Assembly (NCBI GenBank): GCA_030429495.1
Contig: JAUIFH010000005.1
Coordinates: 62,001 to 126,000, forward strand
Reading direction: 5' to 3'
Source: Alphaproteobacteria bacterium
Lineage (GTDB): Bacteria > Pseudomonadota > Alphaproteobacteria > Rhodobacterales > Rhodobacteraceae
Length of the DNA: 64,000 bases
A model generated the notes under the pieces. The model was not told the DNA's origin, did not search any database, and saw only the letters and a list, made by a program, of their open reading frames with translations. Position 1 is the first letter of the stretch; each line of letters begins with the position of its first letter. Below, one piece after another: positions 8,703 through 19,678 of the stretch. The position numbers and the translations under genes are program-made.

Positions 8703-10952
8703 TCAGGCGGCACTGCGGCGCGTTTTCCAGTCGATCAGCGCCCTCAAACGGGCGAGTTGCACCGGTTTCGTCAGGACCGAAAACCCAATCTCTGCGCCGA
8801 GCTGATTCAATTCGCCGGAATGATCGGCGGTGACGATGATCGCGGGGATATCCGTGCCGGAGGCGGCCCGAAGGGCCCTGATCGCTGCCACGCCCGTATC
8901 GTCGCCGTCGAGCCGGAAGTCCGCGATGATGACATCGGGCGCAGTACCGATTTCTTCCATCAGCGCCAGAGCGCCGTCGGTCGACGAAGTACCAAGCGCG
9001 CTTGCGCCCCAGGCGTCGAGTTTTTCGGTCATGGCGTGAAGTACGTCCGGATCGTTCTCGACCACGAAGACGATCAGGTCGAGCCCACCAGGCGGAGCCG
9101 TCTCGTCCCCACCCGTCGTCACACGCGGAACAGCGCCGCCAAGCGCGCGGTCAACGGTGATGGAGAAGACAGAGCCGCGCCCCGGCACCGAGCGGACACC
9201 GATCTCATGCCCGAGATGGCGGCAGGCACGTTCAACAATCGACAGGCCAAGCCCCATGCACGAGGCCGACCGCGCGTCGCTCACACGCGTGAACTCGTTG
9301 AAGATGCGGCCGAGGTCGGCATCGGAAATCCCGATGCCGGTATCGCAGACATCGATCCGAAGACCGCCTTCGACGCGCCGGCATCCGACTAGAACCCGGC
9401 CGGTATCGGTATACTGGATCGCGTTCGCGACAAGGTTCTGCACGCAGCGCCCGAGGTAGCGCTGATCGGACCGAACCCAGGCAGACGATGGCACCACCGT
9501 CAGCACGATCCCCTTTTCCGCCGCGAGCGGAGCGAAATCTTCCTCAACCGCCCGCAGCAATCCGTCGATGCAGAAATCGCCCACGTTGAATTCGGCCCCC
9601 GCGGTATCCAGGCGCGAGATGTCGAGCAAGGCATGCAGCAGCGACTCGATCGACGAGAAGGACCGCGCAAGACGCTCTACCCGGTCGGACGCGCGGCGTC
9701 CGCCCACGGTTTCGCGCAACGTGGAAATATAGAGCTTCGCGGCATTGATCGGTTGCAGGAGGTCGTGGCTTGCGGCCGCGAGAAAGCGGGTCTTGGAGCG
9801 GTGCGCGGCCTCGGCGGCCTCCATCGCTTCCCGCAGCGCCTCTTCCGTTCGGGCCTGTTCGGCAGCCCGGATCCGGAGCTGGCGGTTGAGTTCCGTCAGC
9901 TCGGCCGTCCGTTCCCTTACCCGCCGTTCAAGGATCTGATTGATCCTCTGGCGCTCCTCGGCGGCTTCCGTCTCGGCGGTCACGTCGGTGACGGTCACGA
10001 TGAAGCCGTTGTCGGGCAGCGCGTGGATCTGGACGTCCAGGCTGACCCGGTCGGGACGCCGGAAACGCTCCTGCACCACCTCGCCGCGGCGGACCGCCTT
10101 CGACCAGGCGGCGATCCCCGCCGCGCCATCCTCGGGTTGCAGCGCCTCGAACCGTTGCACGTGCTCGACGATGCGGCGGAAACCGGTGCCCTTTTTCATC
10201 AGCGAAAGCGGAATGCCGAGCAATTCCCCGAACCGGCCGTTGCGCACCAGAAGATCGCCCTCGGCCGAAAAGGTGCAGATCCCAAGCGGCATGTAATCGA
10301 AGGTCGCCTGAAGCATATGCGCCTGGCGGTCGATCAACTGGTTCTTCTCACGCCGGTTGCGGCGAACGACATCCGTGATCTCGGTCTGCAGGACCGCGAT
10401 GTTGCCCGATCCTGTCTGGCGGCAGGAAATCTGGAACCACCGGTCGTTCTTCAGCGCCATGATCTGGTTTGCGAACCGGCGGTCACGCGGTTTCGCGGCG
10501 CGGCCTGCCTCGGAGGGTGTCGGCGGGCGGACGAACTTGCTGGCGGCGACAGCACTCAGATATTCGTCGAAGCCAAGTCCCGGCGCTATTAGAGGGGACA
10601 CGTCGGGCAGAAGCCGGCGGAACCGGTCATTGCACACCAGAAGCCGTTCTTCCGAGAACAAAGCAAAGCCGCCCTCGACCGCCATCATCGCGTCGGCGAG
10701 CGTCTTCTGCATCCGTTCCTGCAGCCGATGCGCAAGTTCGAGTTCCGAACTCGCCCGCCCGAGTGTGTCGAGCGCCTGCTCCAGATCGCGGGTCTTTTCC
10801 CACACCGCCCCCTGAAGCGCGATCGCAGACTGGAACAGCGAATAGGCCGAGCGGCCAACCCCGTGCCCACGCTCCGCCCGCGTGATCAGTGCCTCGATGA
10901 TCTTTGCCTGCCGTTCGATCTGCAGTTCCGGCGGTTCGGTCGGGTCGATCAC
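8703..10952 (-). CDS. Hybrid sensor histidine kinase / response regulator
   Basis: A 749-residue cytoplasmic kinase. Two PAS-like segments (DAMMAVEGGFALFSEERLL and DYMPLGICTFSAEGDLLV) are followed by a coiled coil, the HisKA box RFLAAASHDLLQPINAAKL, the ATPase N box QNLVANAIQYTD and G boxes DTGIGISD and GLGLSIVER, and a C-terminal receiver with phospho-Asp in VIIADFRLDGDD and Lys in LTKPVQ. The start is GTG 10952 with GGAGGAGGG upstream; its GTGA overlaps the stop of the FIST gene, so the two are translationally coupled. Domain order and context match NahK-like kinases and the FlhS-type C1 sensors. Confidence 0.9.
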   Translation of the reverse strand: MIDPTEPPELQIERQAKIIEALITRAERGHGVGRSAYSLFQSAIALQGAVWEKTRDLEQALDTLGRASSELELAHRLQERMQKTLADAMMAVEGGFALFSEERLLVCNDRFRRLLPDVSPLIAPGLGFDEYLSAVAASKFVRPPTPSEAGRAAKPRDRRFANQIMALKNDRWFQISCRQTGSGNIAVLQTEITDVVRRNRREKNQLIDRQAHMLQATFDYMPLGICTFSAEGDLLVRNGRFGELLGIPLSLMKKGTGFRRIVEHVQRFEALQPEDGAAGIAAWSKAVRRGEVVQERFRRPDRVSLDVQIHALPDNGFIVTVTDVTAETEAAEERQRINQILERRVRERTAELTELNRQLRIRAAEQARTEEALREAMEAAEAAHRSKTRFLAAASHDLLQPINAAKLYISTLRETVGGRRASDRVERLARSFSSIESLLHALLDISRLDTAGAEFNVGDFCIDGLLRAVEEDFAPLAAEKGIVLTVVPSSAWVRSDQRYLGRCVQNLVANAIQYTDTGRVLVGCRRVEGGLRIDVCDTGIGISDADLGRIFNEFTRVSDARSASCMGLGLSIVERACRHLGHEIGVRSVPGRGSVFSITVDRALGGAVPRVTTGGDETAPPGGLDLIVFVVENDPDVLHAMTEKLDAWGASALGTSSTDGALALMEEIGTAPDVIIADFRLDGDDTGVAAIRALRAASGTDIPAIIVTADHSGELNQLGAEIGFSVLTKPVQLARLRALIDWKTRRSAA

Positions 10953-12118
10953 AGCGCGGGTCCCTCCTCCGGACGGAAGAAGGCGATGCCGACGAAGGTC
11001 TGGTTCACATGCACGCCCAGATGTTGCTCGCCGTAGGTGTTGAACCCGACAACGCGGTGGGTGCGGAACTGCTCCGAAGCATCTTCGCCGAGACCCTTGT
11101 GCTCGATCTCGAGCTTGCGCAGATAGCAATCGAAACCGAGGATGAGGTCAGGCGGAAATCCACGTTCGTCGCGCACACCCAGCCCGGCGCCGAGCGTGCG
11201 GATGATCTCCTTTCCGCTGCCGAGCGTCAGCAGGAGGCCGTCGTCGATCGCCGAAAGGAATGTCAAGCCACCGCCTTCGGCGATGCCCTGGATCGCGCGG
11301 ACATGATAGGCCGACCCGTTGCGCACAAGGACCGGGTTCTCCGCAAAGACGATCGGCGACAACTCATGGGCAGGAACTCCGACGAGTCGGGCATATTCTT
11401 GCGCGGCGGGTGCGCCGTTCAATTCCAGCACCAGCCGCTTTTCCGGAACCGCGCGCGTCACGACCATCCGTTTCGTGGTCGGCTGGAAATGGTCGAAACC
11501 AAGTCCACGAAAGGACAGATCGGTATCGAGCAGCACGAGAACCGCAGCATCCTCGTGGAACGCGCCACCATGGAGGACGAACGTCTTCTCAAACGCGAGA
11601 CCGTCGCCAGCGGAACCGCCAAAGACCGGGATATCCTGAAAACCCGCCTCAAGCGCAGCGACGACAAGGTCTTCCTGCTGCGACAGGCCGTCTGCAAAGA
11701 CCAGCGCGAGGCGTCGGCGCCCCGGTGTCGCCGGGAACCGCGCCGCCAGCCCCTCGGCCTGCCGGACGATCTCGCCGATATGGACTGGACGCAGCGGCCG
11801 GATCAGCGCCGAGGCGACCCGGAACCGGCTGCGCCGGAAGGCAAGCGCGATCAGCGCGTCATTCTCATAACCGGCGGGCGTGATCTGCCCGGCCGATGTG
11901 CATCCGTAAACCGCCGGCGCAAATGGCTGCTCCGCCAGCGCACCCGCCAGAGCGGCGCGGTCGAGCGTGTTGGGTACGAAGAGAAGGACGAAACTCGGAT
12001 CGGCGGCGCTGATGGCCGACGCAATCTCGGCGACGGCCGCAGCCGGATCGCGCTGGCGCGACACAGCGACGGTGACGGCCTCGGCCGGTTTAACGGTCAG
12101 ATCGCGCAGCATCTGCAT
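10949..12118 (-). CDS. FIST-domain sensory protein
   Basis: A 389-residue protein with the FIST N domain (AVYGCTSAGQITPAGYENDALIAL) and FIST C domain (EYARLVGVP, NPVLVRNGSAYHVRAI, LTFLSAIDDG, YLRKLEIEHK). FIST proteins bind small ligands; in NosP the domain senses nitric oxide via haem and controls a co-encoded NahK-type kinase. The start ATG 12118 follows GGAGGAGGG; an upstream GTG (12142) is less well placed. It overlaps the hybrid kinase by four bases, so the pair probably works as sensor and kinase. The actual ligand here is unknown and may relate to C1 metabolism. Confidence 0.88.
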   Translation of the reverse strand: MQMLRDLTVKPAEAVTVAVSRQRDPAAAVAEIASAISAADPSFVLLFVPNTLDRAALAGALAEQPFAPAVYGCTSAGQITPAGYENDALIALAFRRSRFRVASALIRPLRPVHIGEIVRQAEGLAARFPATPGRRRLALVFADGLSQQEDLVVAALEAGFQDIPVFGGSAGDGLAFEKTFVLHGGAFHEDAAVLVLLDTDLSFRGLGFDHFQPTTKRMVVTRAVPEKRLVLELNGAPAAQEYARLVGVPAHELSPIVFAENPVLVRNGSAYHVRAIQGIAEGGGLTFLSAIDDGLLLTLGSGKEIIRTLGAGLGVRDERGFPPDLILGFDCYLRKLEIEHKGLGEDASEQFRTHRVVGFNTYGEQHLGVHVNQTFVGIAFFRPEEGPAL

Positions 12119-12149
12119 CCCGTCGCCCTCCTCCTGCAGCACCGCCCAG

Positions 12150-12839
12150 TTATTGCAGGTGATGCCGGATCGAAACTTCCCGCACCATGAGCGCCGCCTG
12201 CGTCCGGTTGCGAACCCCGAGCCGGCGCAGCAGCGTCGTGATATGCGCCTTCACCGTCGCCTCGGCCAACTCCATCTCGTAAGCGATGAGCTTGTTGGGC
12301 TTGCCCTTGCAGATGAGGCCGAGAATCCGGGTTTGCTGCTGCGACAACCCGGCAATCCGCCGCGAAATCTCCGTCACGTTCGGATCGACGGCCGGCGAGT
12401 TCAAGGTGCCCTCGTAACCGGCCGGAACATAGGTCTTTCCATCCGATATCTCGAGCATTGCCGCGCAGAGCGTCTCGCGCCCAAGGTCCTTCGGGATGAA
12501 CCCCGCGGCGCCGGCGGCCATCACGGAGCGAACGACATCGGCTGAGGTGATTGCCGAGATCACAACCACCGGCACGTCCTGCGCCTTGCCCTTGATCTTC
12601 ATGAAGCCGCTCAACCCCGAGACGTCCGGCAGGTTCAGATCAAGCATCACCAGATCGGGCGCGAAGCGGTTGCGCAGGAATTGCAGCGCTTCGCCCAGAG
12701 TGCTCGCCTTGCGGACGTGGCGGATGTGAAAAACGCTTTCCATCATCGACGCCAGCGCGTCGCAGTAAAGCGGATGGTCGTCGACCACCAACGCCGAACG
12801 GATCGGCGCCGCGTGAGCGGCCTCGGACATGCACGCCAT
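12150..12839 (-). CDS. LuxR/NarL-type response regulator
   Basis: A 229-residue two-component regulator. The receiver has the acidic pair in ALVVDDHPLY, the phospho-acceptor Asp in LVMLDLNLPDVSG, Thr/Ser in VVISAITSADV, and Lys in GFIPKDLG. The C-terminal LuxR helix-turn-helix is LSQQQTRILGLICKGKPNKL and ATVKAHITTLLRRLGV. ATG 12839 has AGGGAGG upstream. It is the first gene of the run RR - FIST - hybrid kinase - Cys-rich exported protein and is the obvious partner of the kinase. By position and type it resembles FlhR/AgmR/EraR regulators of alcohol oxidation genes. Confidence 0.9.
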   Translation of the reverse strand: MACMSEAAHAAPIRSALVVDDHPLYCDALASMMESVFHIRHVRKASTLGEALQFLRNRFAPDLVMLDLNLPDVSGLSGFMKIKGKAQDVPVVVISAITSADVVRSVMAAGAAGFIPKDLGRETLCAAMLEISDGKTYVPAGYEGTLNSPAVDPNVTEISRRIAGLSQQQTRILGLICKGKPNKLIAYEMELAEATVKAHITTLLRRLGVRNRTQAALMVREVSIRHHLQ

Positions 12840-13428: not shown

Positions 13429-15459
13429 GTGCTTGAGAATGCCTATCTTCTGAAATCCGGAAACGCCGCTTTCGCCAGCGTCTCTGCCGAATTCACCGCA
13501 CTGTCGGACAAACTCGACCGGTTGGCCGAGATCTCTGACAGCCGCACAGCGTCCAGGGCCGCCGGGCTGAAGGCCCGGCTTCAGGCGTTTTCACCGCGGA
13601 TCACGATGGTCGGCCAGGTCAAGGCCGGGAAATCCGCGCTCGTCAACGTGCTTGCGGCGACGCCGGGCCTGCTGCCCTCCGACGTCAACCCGTGGACATC
13701 GGTCGTCACCACGCTCGCCATCAACGGCAAGGCACCGGCGGAAGCCGACGCGCAGGGCGAGACCAAGGCCCGCTTCACCTTCTTCGACCGTGACGAATGG
13801 GACAACCTCGTCAATCACGGCGGTCGGCTTGGTGAGCTTGCCGAACGCGCGGGCGCGGAAGAGGAACTGCACAAGATCGAAGCGCAGATCGACGCCATGC
13901 GGCGCAAGACCGAATCCCGTCTCGGCAAGCATTTCGAGCTTCTCCTCGGGCAGAGCCATACCTACGGGTACCTCGATTCCGAACTCGTGGAGCGCTATGT
14001 CTGCCTCGGTGACGGCATCGAGGCCGGCGATATCAGCGCCGCGACCGGCCGCTTCGCCGACATCACGAAATCGGCGGAATTCTACGTCGGCGTCCCGGAA
14101 TACGATATGGCGATGACGCTGTGCGACACGCCCGGCGTCAACGATACGTTCATGATGCGCGAGCAGATCACGCTGCGCAGCCTGCGCGGCTCCGAACTGT
14201 GCGTTGTCGTGTTGTCGGCCCATCAGGCGCTCAGCACCGTGGACCTCGCGCTGATGCGGATCATCGCGAACCTTGAGAACCGTCAGGTGATCCTGTTCAT
14301 CAACCGTATCGACGAGCTTCAAGAACCGGTCCGGCAGATCGCCGAAATCCGCGACAGCATCACGTCGACGTTGAAGAAGTTCAACATCAGCTCCGATGTC
14401 GCCGTCATCTTCGGCAGCGCGAAATGGGGCGAAGCGGCGCTTACCGGCTCTATGGACATGCTGTCCGCCGACAGCCGGGACACGCTTTCCGACTATATCG
14501 AAGGCTGCCCCGACCAAAAGTCCGAGGACGGCTGGGAAACCATCTGGAACGTCTCGGGGATGCCCGACCTGCTCCGTGCGATTGCGGTGCGGATCGAGGA
14601 AGGCGCGGGCCGCCGTCAACTGGACCGCACCCGCCGCGCCGCGCGCAACCTCACCAACGAGGCACGCGCCCGGATGGTCGCGAAGCACGAGAGCGGCGCG
14701 ACCGTCGACCTTGAACTGGCCGGTGGATCGGCAATCACGACGATGGCCGAACTGACCGAGCGGTTCGAGGGCGACATGGGAACGCTTTGCCAATCGCTGC
14801 GCGACGACCTCGTCCAGCGCATGGGCGCCGCCGAAAACGGCTTTGTCAAACGCGCGACCGACGCCCTCGTCGCGCATCTCGACGAGTTTGGCGAACAGGG
14901 CACCTGGAGCTACGACCCGACCGGGCTGCGTGTCCTGCAGCGCACCGCTTATATGAGCTTCTCTCGCGCGCTGACAGCCAAGGTCGGCGCCCTCTACACC
15001 GATGCCGCGGCCCATGTTCAGGGCGTCTATGCCGCCATGCTCGGCGACCGGCTTGGCGATTTCCGGATCGAACCGCCCTACCCGCCGCGCGTCCCGGCGC
15101 CGGTCGGCCTCGGCCGCACCATCGCGCTTGACCTGCAAAGCACCTGGTGGCGGCGCTGGTGGCAGAAGCGGCGCGGCGCGGCGGCTTTTGCCAATGACTA
15201 CGCCCATCTGATCCGCGCCGAAGTGCATTCCATTTCCGAAGATGTGGAACGCAACCAGGCAGCCGCGGTGCTGGAAAACGCCCGCGCCACCCTGACCGAA
15301 TTCCTTCGCGAGCACCGCGAGACGATCGAACGCCTGGCGAACCCCGGCGTCGACGGCGCGGATGCTTCTGACGACGCGCTGGCTGAACTTCAGGCCGGAT
15401 CCGTCACCAACAGCGCCTTCAGCGAGATCCTCAAGGATCTCGACGACATGGCCGCCTGA
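13429..15459 (+). CDS. Dynamin-like GTPase, first of operon
   Basis: A 676-residue large GTPase of the dynamin superfamily. G1 is GQVKAGKS (62-69), G3 is DTPG (233-236) in LCDTPGVND, and G4 is NRID (292-295). A long helical region follows with a Trp/Arg-rich patch (TWWRRWWQKRRG near residue 595) that could be a membrane-contact paddle, and a C-terminal coiled-coil-like helix. GTG 13429 is favoured because AGGGGAG lies nine bases upstream; earlier in-frame starts at 13342 and 13399 have no site. It heads a five-gene operon with two more GTPases. Membrane remodelling is inferred from the superfamily; the cellular role is unknown. Confidence 0.85.
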   Translation: MLENAYLLKSGNAAFASVSAEFTALSDKLDRLAEISDSRTASRAAGLKARLQAFSPRITMVGQVKAGKSALVNVLAATPGLLPSDVNPWTSVVTTLAINGKAPAEADAQGETKARFTFFDRDEWDNLVNHGGRLGELAERAGAEEELHKIEAQIDAMRRKTESRLGKHFELLLGQSHTYGYLDSELVERYVCLGDGIEAGDISAATGRFADITKSAEFYVGVPEYDMAMTLCDTPGVNDTFMMREQITLRSLRGSELCVVVLSAHQALSTVDLALMRIIANLENRQVILFINRIDELQEPVRQIAEIRDSITSTLKKFNISSDVAVIFGSAKWGEAALTGSMDMLSADSRDTLSDYIEGCPDQKSEDGWETIWNVSGMPDLLRAIAVRIEEGAGRRQLDRTRRAARNLTNEARARMVAKHESGATVDLELAGGSAITTMAELTERFEGDMGTLCQSLRDDLVQRMGAAENGFVKRATDALVAHLDEFGEQGTWSYDPTGLRVLQRTAYMSFSRALTAKVGALYTDAAAHVQGVYAAMLGDRLGDFRIEPPYPPRVPAPVGLGRTIALDLQSTWWRRWWQKRRGAAAFANDYAHLIRAEVHSISEDVERNQAAAVLENARATLTEFLREHRETIERLANPGVDGADASDDALAELQAGSVTNSAFSEILKDLDDMAA

Positions 15460-15473
15460 GCAGGACGAAGAAC

Positions 15474-17201
15474 ATGAAGGATGACATCATCAGCCACCAG
15501 CGCGAAGTGACGGCAGCCCAGCTTTCGCGCCTGGAAGATTGGGCGAACCGCAAGCCCTGCATCGCTCTGATGGGTGAATTCAGCGCCGGCAAGACCACGC
15601 TCATCAACTTCCTTCTGGGCGAGGACATCCTGCCGACGCGGGTCACTGCAACCCAGCTTCCTCCAGTCTGGATGAGCTATGGCGACCCTGCGGCGTTCTA
15701 CGTCGATACCGACGGGCAGCGCCACGACCTGCCGTTCGACAGCATCGACACGGTCCCGCTGGAAAACGCGCGCTACATCCGCCTCTACTGCCGCGGCAAT
15801 GTGCTTGAGACCGTGGACCTGATCGACACGCCGGGCATCTCGGACCCGAACATCCCGCGCCAGATCTGGGAGGTTGCCGTCGGCTACGTCAACACGATCG
15901 TCTGGTGCACGCATGCGACGCAGGCATGGCGCGAAACCGAACGCAGCGCATGGGAATCCCTGCCCGACCGCCTGCGCGCCCAGAGTGTGCTTCTGGCGAC
16001 GCGTTCCGACAAGCTGACCGAGACCGAGCGCGCCCGTGTCCTGTCGCGGCTCGAACGCGAAGCGGGTGAGCAGTTCCGCAATATCATCATGTTCTCCGCC
16101 ACCGACGCGATCAAGGCGAGCGCGGCCGAAGAGGCAAGCGACCTCTGGCAGTCGAGCGGCGCCGACGACCTTCTCGTCACGCTGGGCGAAATCGCGGCCG
16201 AGATCAGCGAGCACCGCAAACAGATGCTCGCCCGGTATGAAGCCGTGGCCGAACCCGGCGCAGCGGCGAGCGCCGAACCGGAAGAGCCGGTCCGCGTCAT
16301 GCCAAGCCGGGTCCGCCCGGCCGGACAGCTTCGCGACGGCGACGGCAGCCGTGCCCGCCCGAGCGCCGACAGCGCCGACGCCGAGCGCCTTCGCGTTCTC
16401 GAAACCGCCGAGGACATTGCCGAAGACATCGCGGAGGAGACCGACGCGGCCGAGGCACCCGCGCCTTTCGTTCTGACCGGGGCACTTCCGCGGGACACGG
16501 ATATCGAGGCGCCGGAGAGCGATCACGAGACCACCGACGATGACCGCATCCGCGAGGCAATGGTGGATCTGCACGCGTTCGATACCGAGGAGCCGACCGC
16601 CGAAGACGACAGTCTCGAAGCCAGCGAGGAAGCCGATTCCGACGCCGAGGCAGAAGCAGAGGCTGAAGTTGAGGTTGAGGTTGAGGCTGAAGAAGAAGCG
16701 ACCGCCGACGAAGGCGAAACAGCTTACGAGGACGATGCCGAACCCGTGGATGAGGAAGTCGGTGAAATGTCACTCGACGATATCTTTGCCACCGATATTG
16801 GCGACGACGAGGAAGCATCGGTCGAAGAGATCGTTGCGGATGACAACATGACCGATGCTATCGCGGAAGCAGCGGAAGAAACCGGCGAGACCTACGAGGA
16901 AGAGGAAGAGGATGCGTTCGACGCCTCTGCCTTCGACCGCATCATCGCCGCCGCCGCGCCGGATCGCGCTGAGCCGACGGAACCGGTGGTTCTTGCCGAC
17001 CGCTCCGCGCCGCAGGGCGGCAAACCCGGCAGCGCCGTGGCCCTCTGGCGCGAGGTCGTCGCCCGCGCGCCGCAGGTGGAGACCGTGCCGGACGTCCTGG
17101 CTCTGATCGAGAACTTCCTGGCCGCGCAGGACGAGCTTTATGCGGAAGAAGACGAAGCGGCAGAAGAAGACGCGACGCAACTGCTTTCACGGCGTGCGTA
17201 A
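15474..17201 (+). CDS. Dynamin-like GTPase with long acidic tail
   Basis: A 575-residue protein. Residues 1-240 form a GTPase domain with G1 GEFSAGKTT (34-42), G3 DTPG (118-121) in LIDTPGISDP, and an altered G4 TRSD (176-179) in place of NKxD. Residues about 260-500 are low-complexity and very acidic (runs of Glu, Asp, Ala and Val) and include an EVEVEVEAEEE stretch encoded by a short tandem repeat. The last ~60 residues return to an ordered helix (LWREVVARAP, DVLALIENFLAAQDEL). It follows the first GTPase by 14 bp. Its core is clearly paralogous to the third GTPase of the operon, sharing a VWC...W...LP pattern. Confidence 0.85.
   Translation: MKDDIISHQREVTAAQLSRLEDWANRKPCIALMGEFSAGKTTLINFLLGEDILPTRVTATQLPPVWMSYGDPAAFYVDTDGQRHDLPFDSIDTVPLENARYIRLYCRGNVLETVDLIDTPGISDPNIPRQIWEVAVGYVNTIVWCTHATQAWRETERSAWESLPDRLRAQSVLLATRSDKLTETERARVLSRLEREAGEQFRNIIMFSATDAIKASAAEEASDLWQSSGADDLLVTLGEIAAEISEHRKQMLARYEAVAEPGAAASAEPEEPVRVMPSRVRPAGQLRDGDGSRARPSADSADAERLRVLETAEDIAEDIAEETDAAEAPAPFVLTGALPRDTDIEAPESDHETTDDDRIREAMVDLHAFDTEEPTAEDDSLEASEEADSDAEAEAEAEVEVEVEAEEEATADEGETAYEDDAEPVDEEVGEMSLDDIFATDIGDDEEASVEEIVADDNMTDAIAEAAEETGETYEEEEEDAFDASAFDRIIAAAAPDRAEPTEPVVLADRSAPQGGKPGSAVALWREVVARAPQVETVPDVLALIENFLAAQDELYAEEDEAAEEDATQLLSRRA
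16646..16700 (+). repeat. In-frame simple repeat (GAGGTT/GAGGCT type)
   Basis: Within the acidic tail coding region a degenerate 6-base unit (GAGGCT, GAAGTT, GAGGTT, GAGGTT, GAGGCT, GAAGAA) is repeated. Because the unit is six bases, length change by slippage would keep the frame and only lengthen or shorten the Glu-Val/Glu-Ala tract. Confidence 0.7.
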
Positions 17202-17208
17202 GAACGGT

Positions 17209-17231
17209 CCGGAGCCGCATCGCGGCTCCGG
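17209..17231 (+). other. Intra-operon hairpin
   Basis: CCGGAGCCGC and GCGGCTCCGG (17209-17218, 17222-17231) form a perfect 10-bp stem with a 3-base loop between the second GTPase gene and the Roadblock-like gene. No T-run follows, and the ribosome binding site AGGAGG starts a few bases later, so it is more likely an mRNA-processing or stability element than a terminator. Confidence 0.6.
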
Positions 17232-17246
17232 CGCAGGAGGTGGGAC

Positions 17247-17624
17247 ATGTCATTGCGGGAACTGATCGACGCGGGATTGAGCGCGGCGCCGGAGTGCGTC
17301 GCCGTCTCCTATATCGACATGTCCGCCGGTCTGGTTCTGGCGACGGCGAGCCGTACCCCCTACCGTCAGGAAATCCTCGACCGGTTCGCAAAGGTGGCGG
17401 GCCAGATTTTCCGCGGCCCAAACTTCGCTTCGCTTCGCGCGACTGCGGGCGATGACGGCATCCGCCAGGCGACGGTGCTCGGCATCGACCATCTTTATGT
17501 TTTCCAGAGGATCGACGCTGACTCCGATCATGCGCTGTGCCTTGCCGGCCGCAGGGGTGCGGATGCCTCCAGGCTGCGCCAACATGCGCGCGACCTCGGC
17601 GCGGATGTTGCAAATGTCCTGTAA
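17247..17624 (+). CDS. Small protein, probable Roadblock/LC7-like fold
   Basis: A 125-residue soluble protein with the pattern of Roadblock/LC7 proteins: an N-terminal helix (LRELIDAGLSAAPE), a strand pair (CVAVSYIDMSAGLVLATAS), a long amphipathic helix (EILDRFAKVAGQIFRG), then strands IRQATVLGIDHLYVFQRI and HALCLAG and a closing helix. Roadblock proteins act as partners or GAPs of small GTPases, as MglB does for MglA. Lying between GTPase genes, it may regulate one of them. The fold call is from pattern only and needs structure prediction. ATG 17247 has AGGAGG upstream. Confidence 0.7.
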   Translation: MSLRELIDAGLSAAPECVAVSYIDMSAGLVLATASRTPYRQEILDRFAKVAGQIFRGPNFASLRATAGDDGIRQATVLGIDHLYVFQRIDADSDHALCLAGRRGADASRLRQHARDLGADVANVL

Positions 17625-17668
17625 GTATCATGAATTGCGCCAGAAAAATCGAAGCCTCCGGAGCGCCC

Positions 17669-18385
17669 ATGACGCTGAGTGACGATATCCTCACGACGCT
17701 CGGCAAGGCCGAGGCGCTGGCGGTTCCGCGTATTGCGGCAGCGACAGCCCTTCCCGGCGCGGACGCGGCCGCGCGGATCGATGCCATGCTCGACGCGGTG
17801 GCCGCGACGATCCTTCCGCGCCGACTAGTCTTTACCGCCGGGGACGGCGCCTGCGCCGAGCTGACCGCGCGCAGCAGCCGCGTCATCCCCGATGCGGGGA
17901 CGGATATCGACGGCGTCGCGGTCGCGCTTGCGACCCTCGCCTCCGGGCCGGCCCCGCACAAGGTTGAGGCGCGGCTTCTTGACGACGACGCGGCCTCCGA
18001 CGGGATCGGTTTCCGGCCCGACGAACTGCGCGCCGCCTGCCTTGCCGCCGAGATCAACGAGGACGAGCCACCCTCATTCTACGATCTGCTCGCCAGCGCC
18101 TGCTCGACCCGCGCCGAGTTCGATCCTGAGGGCGCGCTGTTGCGGACCGACGGCGAGACGGCAGCGGAGCCGGACGCGATCCTTGCCGGGATTGCCGCGA
18201 TCGAGGCCGACATGGCAGCGATCGGCGAAGCGCCCGCGCTGATCCTTCTTGGTGACGCCGATGGCGGCGACGCTGTTCTTTGCGCGGATGAAACCGGCGC
18301 GGTCATCGCGCGGCTGGCAGAAGGCGGCTGGTCCGCGCTTGAAGACCTGTGGGACGATCTGATCCCCGTCGAAACGGCAGGGTAA
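17669..18385 (+). CDS. Acidic protein of unknown function in GTPase operon
   Basis: I do not recognise this family. The 238-residue protein is acidic and Ala-rich, without signal peptide or membrane segments. It has a helical N-terminal part (DDILTTLGKAEALAVPRIAAA), a middle with FRPDELRAACLAAEIN and PPSFYDLLASACST, and a C-terminal alpha/beta segment (APALILLGDADGGDAVLCAD, GWSALEDLWDDLIPVE). The last segment has a rhythm that could be another Roadblock-like or regulatory fold, but I would not assert it. ATG 17669 has CCGGAG six bases upstream. It sits 44 bp after the Roadblock-like gene and 3 bp before the third GTPase. Confidence 0.75.
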   Translation: MTLSDDILTTLGKAEALAVPRIAAATALPGADAAARIDAMLDAVAATILPRRLVFTAGDGACAELTARSSRVIPDAGTDIDGVAVALATLASGPAPHKVEARLLDDDAASDGIGFRPDELRAACLAAEINEDEPPSFYDLLASACSTRAEFDPEGALLRTDGETAAEPDAILAGIAAIEADMAAIGEAPALILLGDADGGDAVLCADETGAVIARLAEGGWSALEDLWDDLIPVETAG

Positions 18386-18388
18386 GAC

Positions 18389-19678
18389 ATGACCGGAATC
18401 CCGAAGGCAGAACGAGAACACGACATCCTGGCCCGGCTGCTTGCCGCGCTGGAAACCAAGGGCAGCGCCCTCTCGGCCGAGGAAAGCGCCGCGCGGGATC
18501 AGGCGGCGGCTTGGCTTGTCCGGCTCAAGGCGCCGGTGCGGATCGCCGTTGCCGGCCCCGCAGGTGCCGGAAAGTCGAGCCTGATCAACCTGTTCGTCAG
18601 CGATGATATCCTTCCGACCGCGCCCGGTGGCGCCCCCGCCGCACCCGCCGTCATCCTTCGCCATGCCGCCACGCCGGAAACGACGGCAAGCTGGCGCGAC
18701 CGCCCGGACCGGCGGTTTGCAGGCCTTCGCCTTGCCCGGGCGCTGGCGGACAACCCCGACACGGTAGCGCTCGGTCTTGAGTCCGATCTGCTCGAAGACA
18801 TGACCTTCGTCGACATTTCCGGGCTGGACGATCCCGCCACGCGGGGCGATGCGTTCTCAGCTCTGACGCGGCACGCCGACATGGTCGTCTGGTGCCTTCC
18901 GGCCACCGGCGGCTGGTCCGCGAATGAACAGGCGGTCTGGGACACGCTGCCCACAGCACTTCAGCGCCGCAGCCTGCTTGCCGTAACGCATACGGACTCG
19001 CTCGCACGCGGCACGCGCGACGCGACCGCGTCGAGACTGGCCGAGGGTGCCCCGTCGCAGATCGTGGCCTCCCTGCCCGTCGCGACGCCGGAAGCATGGG
19101 ACGCGCTCTTCGGCGACGTCACGGATGCCGAGCGGCAGTGGACCGCAAGCGGCGCCGAGGCGCTGATCGTGGCCATCGCCGATCTTGCCGGCACGATCCG
19201 GCAGTCCGAGATCGACAAGGCCGCGGCCGACATCCGCAAGACCTTCACCCCGCTGCTCGACAGCCTTGCGCCGGCTAGGCCCGCCGCCGCGCCGGTGACC
19301 CCGCTGCGCGGCCCCGCGCCGCGGCCGGAGGCCAATCCGGCGCTGGCCAACTGGAAGCACCGGCTCGCAGCGCTGCATAGCGCCGCAACCGACGGGACCC
19401 TCGCCGACGAGAGCGCTCTGGTCGTGGCCAGCTACGATACGGTCGCCGAGTTCATTGATGACCCGGCAGGCCTGCCCCTGCTGTCGGCGGCGCGGCCCTG
19501 GCTGATGACCGAATTCGAAGCCGCGCGCGACCTGCTTGTCCTGATGCAATACGAGACCGGAACACAGACCGGCCGCACCGCCGCGCGCGTTCTCGTCCAG
19601 CTCAGCGATCTGCTGAGCTGGGTCGCCGACGAGGTGGACCGCACTGCCTGCGATGAACGACCGCGCCAGCGCGCCTAG
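18389..19678 (+). CDS. Dynamin-like GTPase, third of operon, with altered G motifs
   Basis: A 429-residue P-loop GTPase. G1 GPAGAGKSS (56-64) is intact, but G3 reads DISG (142-145) instead of DTPG, and G4 reads THTD (200-203) instead of NKxD. The segment [20 protein letters not shown] followed by LP and LLAVTHTD aligns by eye with VWCTHATQAWRETERSAWE of the second GTPase, so the two are paralogues. A Pro/Ala-rich linker ([19 protein letters not shown]) separates the GTPase from a C-terminal helical domain. It begins three bases after the preceding gene, and its end overlaps the convergent HerA-like gene by four bases. Confidence 0.82.

Follow-up and report, generated by a model that had tools for sequence, protein, structure and literature searches.

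The stretch of DNA analyzed here (the window) comprises 64,000 nucleotides from an alphaproteobacterium of the family Rhodobacteraceae whose genome assembly is 3.83 Mb in size. At positions 13429-19678, translation reveals an operon of five open reading frames, A to E, that adjoin on the plus strand with intergenic gaps of 14 (A-B), 45 (B-C), 44 (C-D), and 3 (D-E) bases, in agreement with an earlier note on this DNA that had listed five same-strand genes separated by 3 to 45 bp. The first two genes encode dynamin-like GTPases: A (13429..15459; 676 amino acids [aa]), whose GTG start is consistent with the starts in close relatives (alignment of 14), and B (15474..17201; 575 aa). They are followed by a Roadblock/LC7-fold protein, C (17247..17624; 125 aa), an acidic protein, D (17669..18385; 238 aa), and a third dynamin-type GTPase, E (18389..19678; 429 aa). 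The operon is not a chance grouping, because the same set recurs in relatives. Scans of the operon for promoters and terminators were uninformative.

All three GTPases exceed the Pfam cut-off of 27 bits for Dynamin_N (PF00350), with 39.4 bits for A (E value, 8.1e-10), 44.3 bits for B (2.6e-11), and 36.5 bits for E (6.3e-9), which bears out their earlier description as large P-loop dynamin-like proteins. No small single-domain Ras-like GTPase is present in the operon, all three GTPases being of the dynamin type and 429 to 676 aa long. Using the customary names of the G motifs (P-loop, G3, etc.), with residues taken from the window translation, we found GQVKAGKS, DTPG, and NRID in A and, from B onward, GEFSAGKT, DTPG, 13 further protein letters (not shown), DISG, and THTD; the window copy of E keeps its G motifs. 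The G domain of A has a long insertion and is followed by more C-terminal sequence holding an invariant WWxxWW (alignment of 14), a possible candidate for a membrane-binding site. In B, the G domain is followed by an acidic tail of ~320 aa (103 D/E versus 19 K/R in residues 256-575; net charge of B, -96), and the P-loop pattern was found in 70 of 70 nonredundant B sequences. When profiles were compared with the Protein Data Bank (PDB), the top match of A was 5owv_A (1.2e-8) and that of B was 5owv_C (4.5e-12). We take 5owv to be the Campylobacter jejuni dynamin pair, and the lengths of its chains suggest which is dynamin-like protein 1 (DLP1) and which is DLP2.

Neither C nor D has a match in Pfam, NCBIfam, or PADLOC at an E value of ≤1 or in PHROG at an E value of ≤0.01. 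To characterize C, we predicted its structure from an alignment of 32 C-family proteins. The model (pLDDT, 94.8) has the order of helices (H) and strands (E) H-E-E-H-H-E-E-E-H, which corresponds to an alpha-beta2-alpha-beta3-alpha fold with one extra helix (residues 58-70). The top 50 Foldseek matches were all Roadblock/LC7, MglB, or Ragulator/MP1-p14 proteins or complexes containing them, and the best of these was 3kye (E value, 2.3e-8). From this confident model, we assign C a predicted Roadblock/LC7 fold. By sequence, the Pfam family Robl_LC7 was listed for 0 of 32 C-family members at an E value of ≤1, and the C profile gave only chance-level matches to PDB sequences, including LAMTOR4 at an E value of ~0.9 to 1. 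The structure prediction that the earlier note had proposed as a check thus returned the Roadblock fold; its Roadblock/LC7-like pattern in the 125-residue protein holds at the level of the fold and is not matched by Robl_LC7.

The acidic character that had been noticed in the 238-residue D is confirmed (pI 4.05), yet a Roadblock-like half had been overlooked. The predicted model of D (42 sequences aligned; pLDDT, 84.8; pTM, 0.64) is in two parts, and residues 117-231 run H-E-E-H-E-E-E-H, residues 137-141 forming a short additional helix. The best Foldseek matches were Roadblock, Ragulator, and MglB chains, with Mon1-Ccz1 found more weakly. The top match was Roadblock2 of Prometheoarchaeum (E value, 2.0e-3); 0 of 898 matches reached an E value of ≤0.001, and template modeling scores against Roadblock chains were ~0.45 to 0.6. 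From the order of the elements, these matches probably belong to the C-terminal half (about 117-231), which may therefore be Roadblock/longin-like, an assignment weaker than that of C. Sequence profiles did not link D to C or to the second Roadblock family described below.

This second family, R, which the earlier note had overlooked while placing a Roadblock protein (C) in the operon, lies beside A-B in some clades and is Roadblock-like by sequence. Five of six R proteins tested match Robl_LC7, at E values of 0.011 to 0.00045, all under the cut-off, and the R profile had no match among PDB sequences. Profile comparison gave a weak link between C and R (probability, 63; E value, 7e-5). As a search model for genomes, Robl_LC7 matched 0 of 292 genomes of the order versus 3 of 14 control genomes, and we therefore regard it as too insensitive here.

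To examine how far the operon is conserved, we searched contigs with an alignment of A. At least 467 relatives were found, and the 80 loci that matched A best were kept. Because they are the best A matches and 33 of them are named Ruegeria, these loci are not independent of one another. Judged by their record titles, they come from Rhodobacteraceae, broadly defined, or from alphaproteobacterial bins without classification; their placement in this family is partly borne out by the A tree. B alone as a query found no relative, its search patterns lying partly in the variable tail of the protein. Genes at the loci were assigned with family profiles built from hand-picked gene models, with any stop sign entered as X, and matches were counted at 25 bits or more. 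All five genes are present in 67 of the 80 loci, C and D in 70, and E in 68; gene order varies, with E located after D or ahead of A, or with an additional A-like gene separating D from E. By script, A is immediately followed by B in 79 of 80 loci; the remaining one, L141, was broken up by the script but was listed as A-B-C-D. The gene after A-B is C in 68 loci and R in 6, giving A-B-Roadblock in 74 of 80 by script and in 75 with L141. Among the loci without a Roadblock gene after A-B, three (L065, L114, and L128) run off the contig and one (L108) ends soon after B; in L112, C-D-E lie on the strand opposite to A-B.

Genome-wide searches gave the same association. A was present in 98 of 292 Rhodobacterales genomes, representing 40 of 112 genera (A profile, E value of ≤1e-40). 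In a draw across the class, it was present in 2 of 337 genomes, both from the family of the window (E value of ≤1e-30), and at least 3 of the 335 A-negative genomes were also family members. Across the order, C was found in 88 genomes (E value of ≤1e-6), comprising 88 of the 98 A-positive and 0 of the 194 A-negative genomes. Of 97 C matches (one row being the second half of a split match), 92 have an A on their own strand, 788 to 2,054 bases upstream. At most 3 to 4 candidates for A and 14 for C were scored per genome, so further copies can be missing. Within the genus, B occurs in 14 of 22 genomes. The genes that the earlier note had grouped into an operon are thus kept together in relatives.

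R accounts for part of the remainder. It occurs in 18 of the 292 genomes, all 18 among the 98 that carry A, and its 21 matches comprise 12 that adjoin a listed A, seven that stand alone, and two fusions to a kinase. Downstream of B, it is found in L167 as well as in the six loci mentioned. In the ten A-positive genomes without C, R lies directly before A in five (L156, L157, L158, L160, and L161), L163 has a weak C (28.5 bits), and four have none (L159, L162, L164, and L165). These neighborhoods define three Roadblock layouts beside the dynamin pair: C after B, R after B, and R before A. We placed 51 A proteins on a midpoint-rooted tree. On it, the four rows with R before A cluster together (98/93), and those with R after B fall among the C rows; the two R layouts occupy separate branches. 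The layout labels require 9 changes on this tree, versus a mean of 18.2 for shuffled labels.

Most of the fetched relatives also carry a signaling arm, which was missed in the earlier note and which the window's genome does not have. Of the 80 loci, 62 encode a Ser/Thr kinase (K), 61 an FHA protein (F), 27 a PP2C phosphatase (P), and 8 LysM proteins (S); the loci extend to 10-kb flanks or contig ends, and P and S are therefore undercounted, with most Ruegeria stretches ending before the PP2C gene. The Pkinase, FHA, and PP2C_2 matches of K, F, and P are above their cut-offs. For S, LysM is above its cut-off in two of three proteins tested, a family-3 solute-binding match is subthreshold (E value, 0.02 to 0.07), and Ruegeria relatives are annotated as substrate-binding. 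Of 72 K sequences, some of which are truncated, 49 have a single membrane span according to a simple hydropathy scan. The order K-F-P-E-A-B-C-D occurs on one strand in Boseongicola, Yoonia, Brevirhabdus, Kangsaoukella, Aestuariivita, Marinosulfonomonas, and unnamed bins, and one Ruegeria replicon has A-B-C-D-A'-E-K-F-P-S-S. Across the genomes of the window's genus, B and F occur together in 13, each alone in 1, and neither in 7 (P = 3.5e-4). Two genomes encode a fusion protein in which a kinase of the K family (507 and 487 bits) is extended at its C terminus by a Roadblock-like R domain (91 and 69 bits; L184:8353-9813 and L185:9005-10426). The kinase, FHA, and PP2C trio is common to this arm and to the threonine-phosphorylation pathway of type VI secretion systems (PpkA/Fha/PppA).

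Other genes accompany the module in some relatives. In 35 of the 80 loci (e.g., L081:6191-6820), A is immediately preceded by a gene, U, for an unknown protein (~140 to 210 aa in those viewed); U had no Pfam match in two proteins tested and was not found upstream in the window (best E value, 0.29). An mreB-like gene, named from its sequence, as are the flagellar genes below, lies behind the dynamin module on the same strand in L117, L118, L120, L124, L130, L135, L137, and L141, all Boseongicola or Silicimonas records, and directly behind it in four of these eight. In two further loci, motB-, flgE-, flgK-, flgL-, and flgI-like genes directly follow D (L109:15368-21213 and L111:15436-21299).

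In the window, a divergent operon on the minus strand (8703-12839) encodes a PAS hybrid histidine kinase, a FIST protein, and a LuxR-type response regulator. Relatives of this histidine kinase and regulator adjoin the module in L055, and a histidine kinase does so in L154. The neighbor operon may be a substitute input for the stripped version of the system in the window, although its position could be a coincidence. A HerA-like gene on the right flank is retained by all 22 genomes of the genus; in the seven congeners whose flanks were examined, neither A nor the left-flank genes adjoin it. The base composition of the operon region is not unusual. We considered a mobile island and rejected it; the flank comparison reveals movement or rearrangement rather than a mobile element.

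Several described systems share parts of this arrangement, and our comparisons with them refer to the passages of the papers cited. In the Cj-DLP1/Cj-DLP2 tethering pair of C. jejuni (PMC6104087), as here, the two dynamin genes are adjacent, and A and B each match a different chain of 5owv. The operon analyzed here additionally has a third GTPase (E), the Roadblock protein C, and D, with a kinase arm in relatives, whereas in the passages cited the only further gene named for the Cj-DLP operon is an HcpA-like beta-lactamase (PMC6104087). LeoABC of enterotoxigenic Escherichia coli, for which a role in membrane-vesicle release has been suggested, likewise has several dynamin genes in one operon; however, LeoB and LeoC are one dynamin split into two genes, and the cited passages name no Roadblock protein or kinase (PMC4159319). 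MglA/MglB of Myxococcus resembles the operon in that a Roadblock-fold protein is encoded beside a GTPase (PMC9481161, PMC4316618), but the GTPase there is small and Ras-like rather than dynamin-type, and C has no Robl_LC7 match. In the passages of PMC4316618, MglB appears as the Roadblock partner of one small GTPase, dynamin is not mentioned, and Roadblock proteins are cited as predicted regulators of NTPases (Koonin and Aravind, as cited there). Finally, the actinobacterial conservons (AGPS) unite a sensor kinase, a Roadblock protein, a protein of unknown function, and a small GTPase in one operon (PMC13343842), a combination of roles similar to that seen here. They differ in phylum and in using a histidine kinase and a small GTPase where the loci described here have a Ser/Thr kinase, FHA, PP2C, and three dynamins. 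By Pfam, the five-gene operon of the window contains no sensor histidine kinase, and relatives have the Ser/Thr kinase.

Starting from the gene order, co-occurrence, protein families, and predicted folds observed at these loci, we infer the contacts between the proteins, the direction of control (like that of a GTPase-activating protein [GAP], like that of a guanine nucleotide exchange factor, or as a scaffold), the phosphorylation-dependent control and its targets, the membrane action and its site, and the biological role. We put at about an even chance that the genes form a lineage-specific, signal-controlled dynamin system that is switched by Roadblock proteins and is often under phospho-signaling. 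In such a system, A and B would be a heterotypic dynamin pair, like Campylobacter DLP1/DLP2, that assembles on a membrane and uses a GTP cycle to tether or remodel that membrane. C, together with D, would be a regulatory subunit binding a G domain, most likely that of E and/or of the A-B pair, and this binding could set the GTP state or the assembly of the bound GTPase, as MglB does for MglA. In relatives with the arm, K would phosphorylate, F would read, and P would erase, thereby switching the set, and S, where present, may be a periplasmic LysM protein resembling solute-binding sensors. The genome of the window keeps only the A-E core, and input must therefore come from elsewhere. The most likely division of labor has C and D regulating G domains (those of E, of A-B, or of both), with the membrane work left to the A-B pair. 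This accords with the membrane-remodeling machine with its own regulatory subunit proposed in the earlier note; the polarity role offered there as the alternative has no specific support.

Several observations weigh against control of the A-B pair by Roadblock proteins under phospho-signaling. The co-occurrence tests ignore shared descent. A has no Roadblock-type neighbor in 4 of the 98 A-positive genomes (L159, L162, L164, and L165), nor does it have one in Rhodobacter sp. CZR27. Seven of the 21 R genes (L177-L183) stand without A, B, or C within ~9 kb, in neighborhoods that recur, and two C genes (L050:8537-8998 and L051:7973-8377) lie in a 17-kb stretch without A, B, or E; near the latter two is a gene that by its sequence alone is reductase-like. 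G117 has K-F-P-E-C-D and K-F-E-C-D loci without A and B; in the second (L188:5571-8373), a PBP-like domain fused to OmpA and a DctP protein lie between F and E, in the place of the LysM proteins, and E has no Dynamin_N match at an E value of ≤0.01. The partner of C and D may therefore be E or K, and, together with the lone R and C genes and the kinase fusions, these loci leave room for Roadblock proteins that act in the kinase branch or on E instead of on A-B. Among 40 nonredundant E sequences, the P-loop pattern is missing in 4 and the D-x-[PS]-G (G3) pattern that we searched for in 20. In Pfam at an E value of ≤0.01, the R domain of the kinase fusions is unlisted, with Robl_LC7 found in 0 of 2 copies. 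As for the arm, S is present in just 8 of 80 loci, many stretches ending too early, and the genome of the window has no F or S match in profile searches, a short generic match to K (9.5e-13, 128 positions), and a generic phosphatase match to P (6.7e-17).

These points give room to other explanations. C and D could be structural adaptors, their Roadblock dimers scaffolding the dynamins or anchoring them to K or to the membrane, as in dynein and Ragulator. We regard this as unlikely, though it is the strongest of the competing accounts: Foldseek returned Ragulator/LAMTOR for both proteins and dynein-complex chains for D besides MglB, and a Roadblock domain is fused to a kinase, but the best matches to C include MglB, which is a GAP, and nothing here separates an adaptor from a regulator. 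It is less probable still that C and D belong with the kinase branch and E while A-B is a separate module merely traveling along. The G117 loci, the kinase-Roadblock fusions without A-B nearby, and the divergent C-D-E of L112 fit this idea, whereas the A-B-R loci have a Roadblock gene with no C, D, E, or K within the stretches covered, C comes next after B in 68 of the 80 loci, and 92 of the 97 C matches have an A upstream of them. Least probable, and in our view quite improbable, is a role in phage defense or stress akin to that of Leo/DynA, with the dynamins protecting or sacrificing the membrane. Such a role would fit the PADLOC matches of A to LeoA (2.7e-9) and LeoBC (5.6e-7), models without a stated cut-off, of B to LeoA (7.8e-6), and of E to PDC-S68 (5e-4), as well as the patchy presence of B in the genus (14 of 22) and the other genomic sites in the congeners examined. 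Set against it are the class-wide draw, which gave no match outside the family, the kinase, FHA, and phosphatase genes that are neighbors in relatives, and the absence of a PHROG match.

To our knowledge, how bacterial dynamins are switched is a largely open question. All parts of the operon but D are known families or folds, and the operon groups with the paired bacterial dynamins. As far as we searched, dynamins combined with Roadblock proteins and a phospho-signaling arm are undescribed: among the open-license PubMed Central papers listed, no title or abstract start described such a bacterial system, which fits the earlier view that this is not a described system. Bacterial Roadblock proteins are presented in the cited passages as partners of small Ras-like GTPases (PMC4316618, PMC9481161, PMC13343842). 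That we are dealing with the first system in which dynamin-superfamily GTPases are under Roadblock/longin-fold control, wired to the envelope in most relatives by a Ser/Thr kinase, an FHA reader, and a phosphatase, is a tentative proposal, and we hold it somewhat more doubtful than not. With Roadblock proteins of two sequence families beside the dynamin pair, Roadblock/longin regulation of dynamins can be put to a direct test in hosts that can be cultured, Ruegeria among them, and the arm is a candidate route by which signals from the envelope could reach membrane remodeling. If true, bacteria would have an equivalent of Ragulator/MglB control in which membrane-remodeling GTPases take the place of the small ones.

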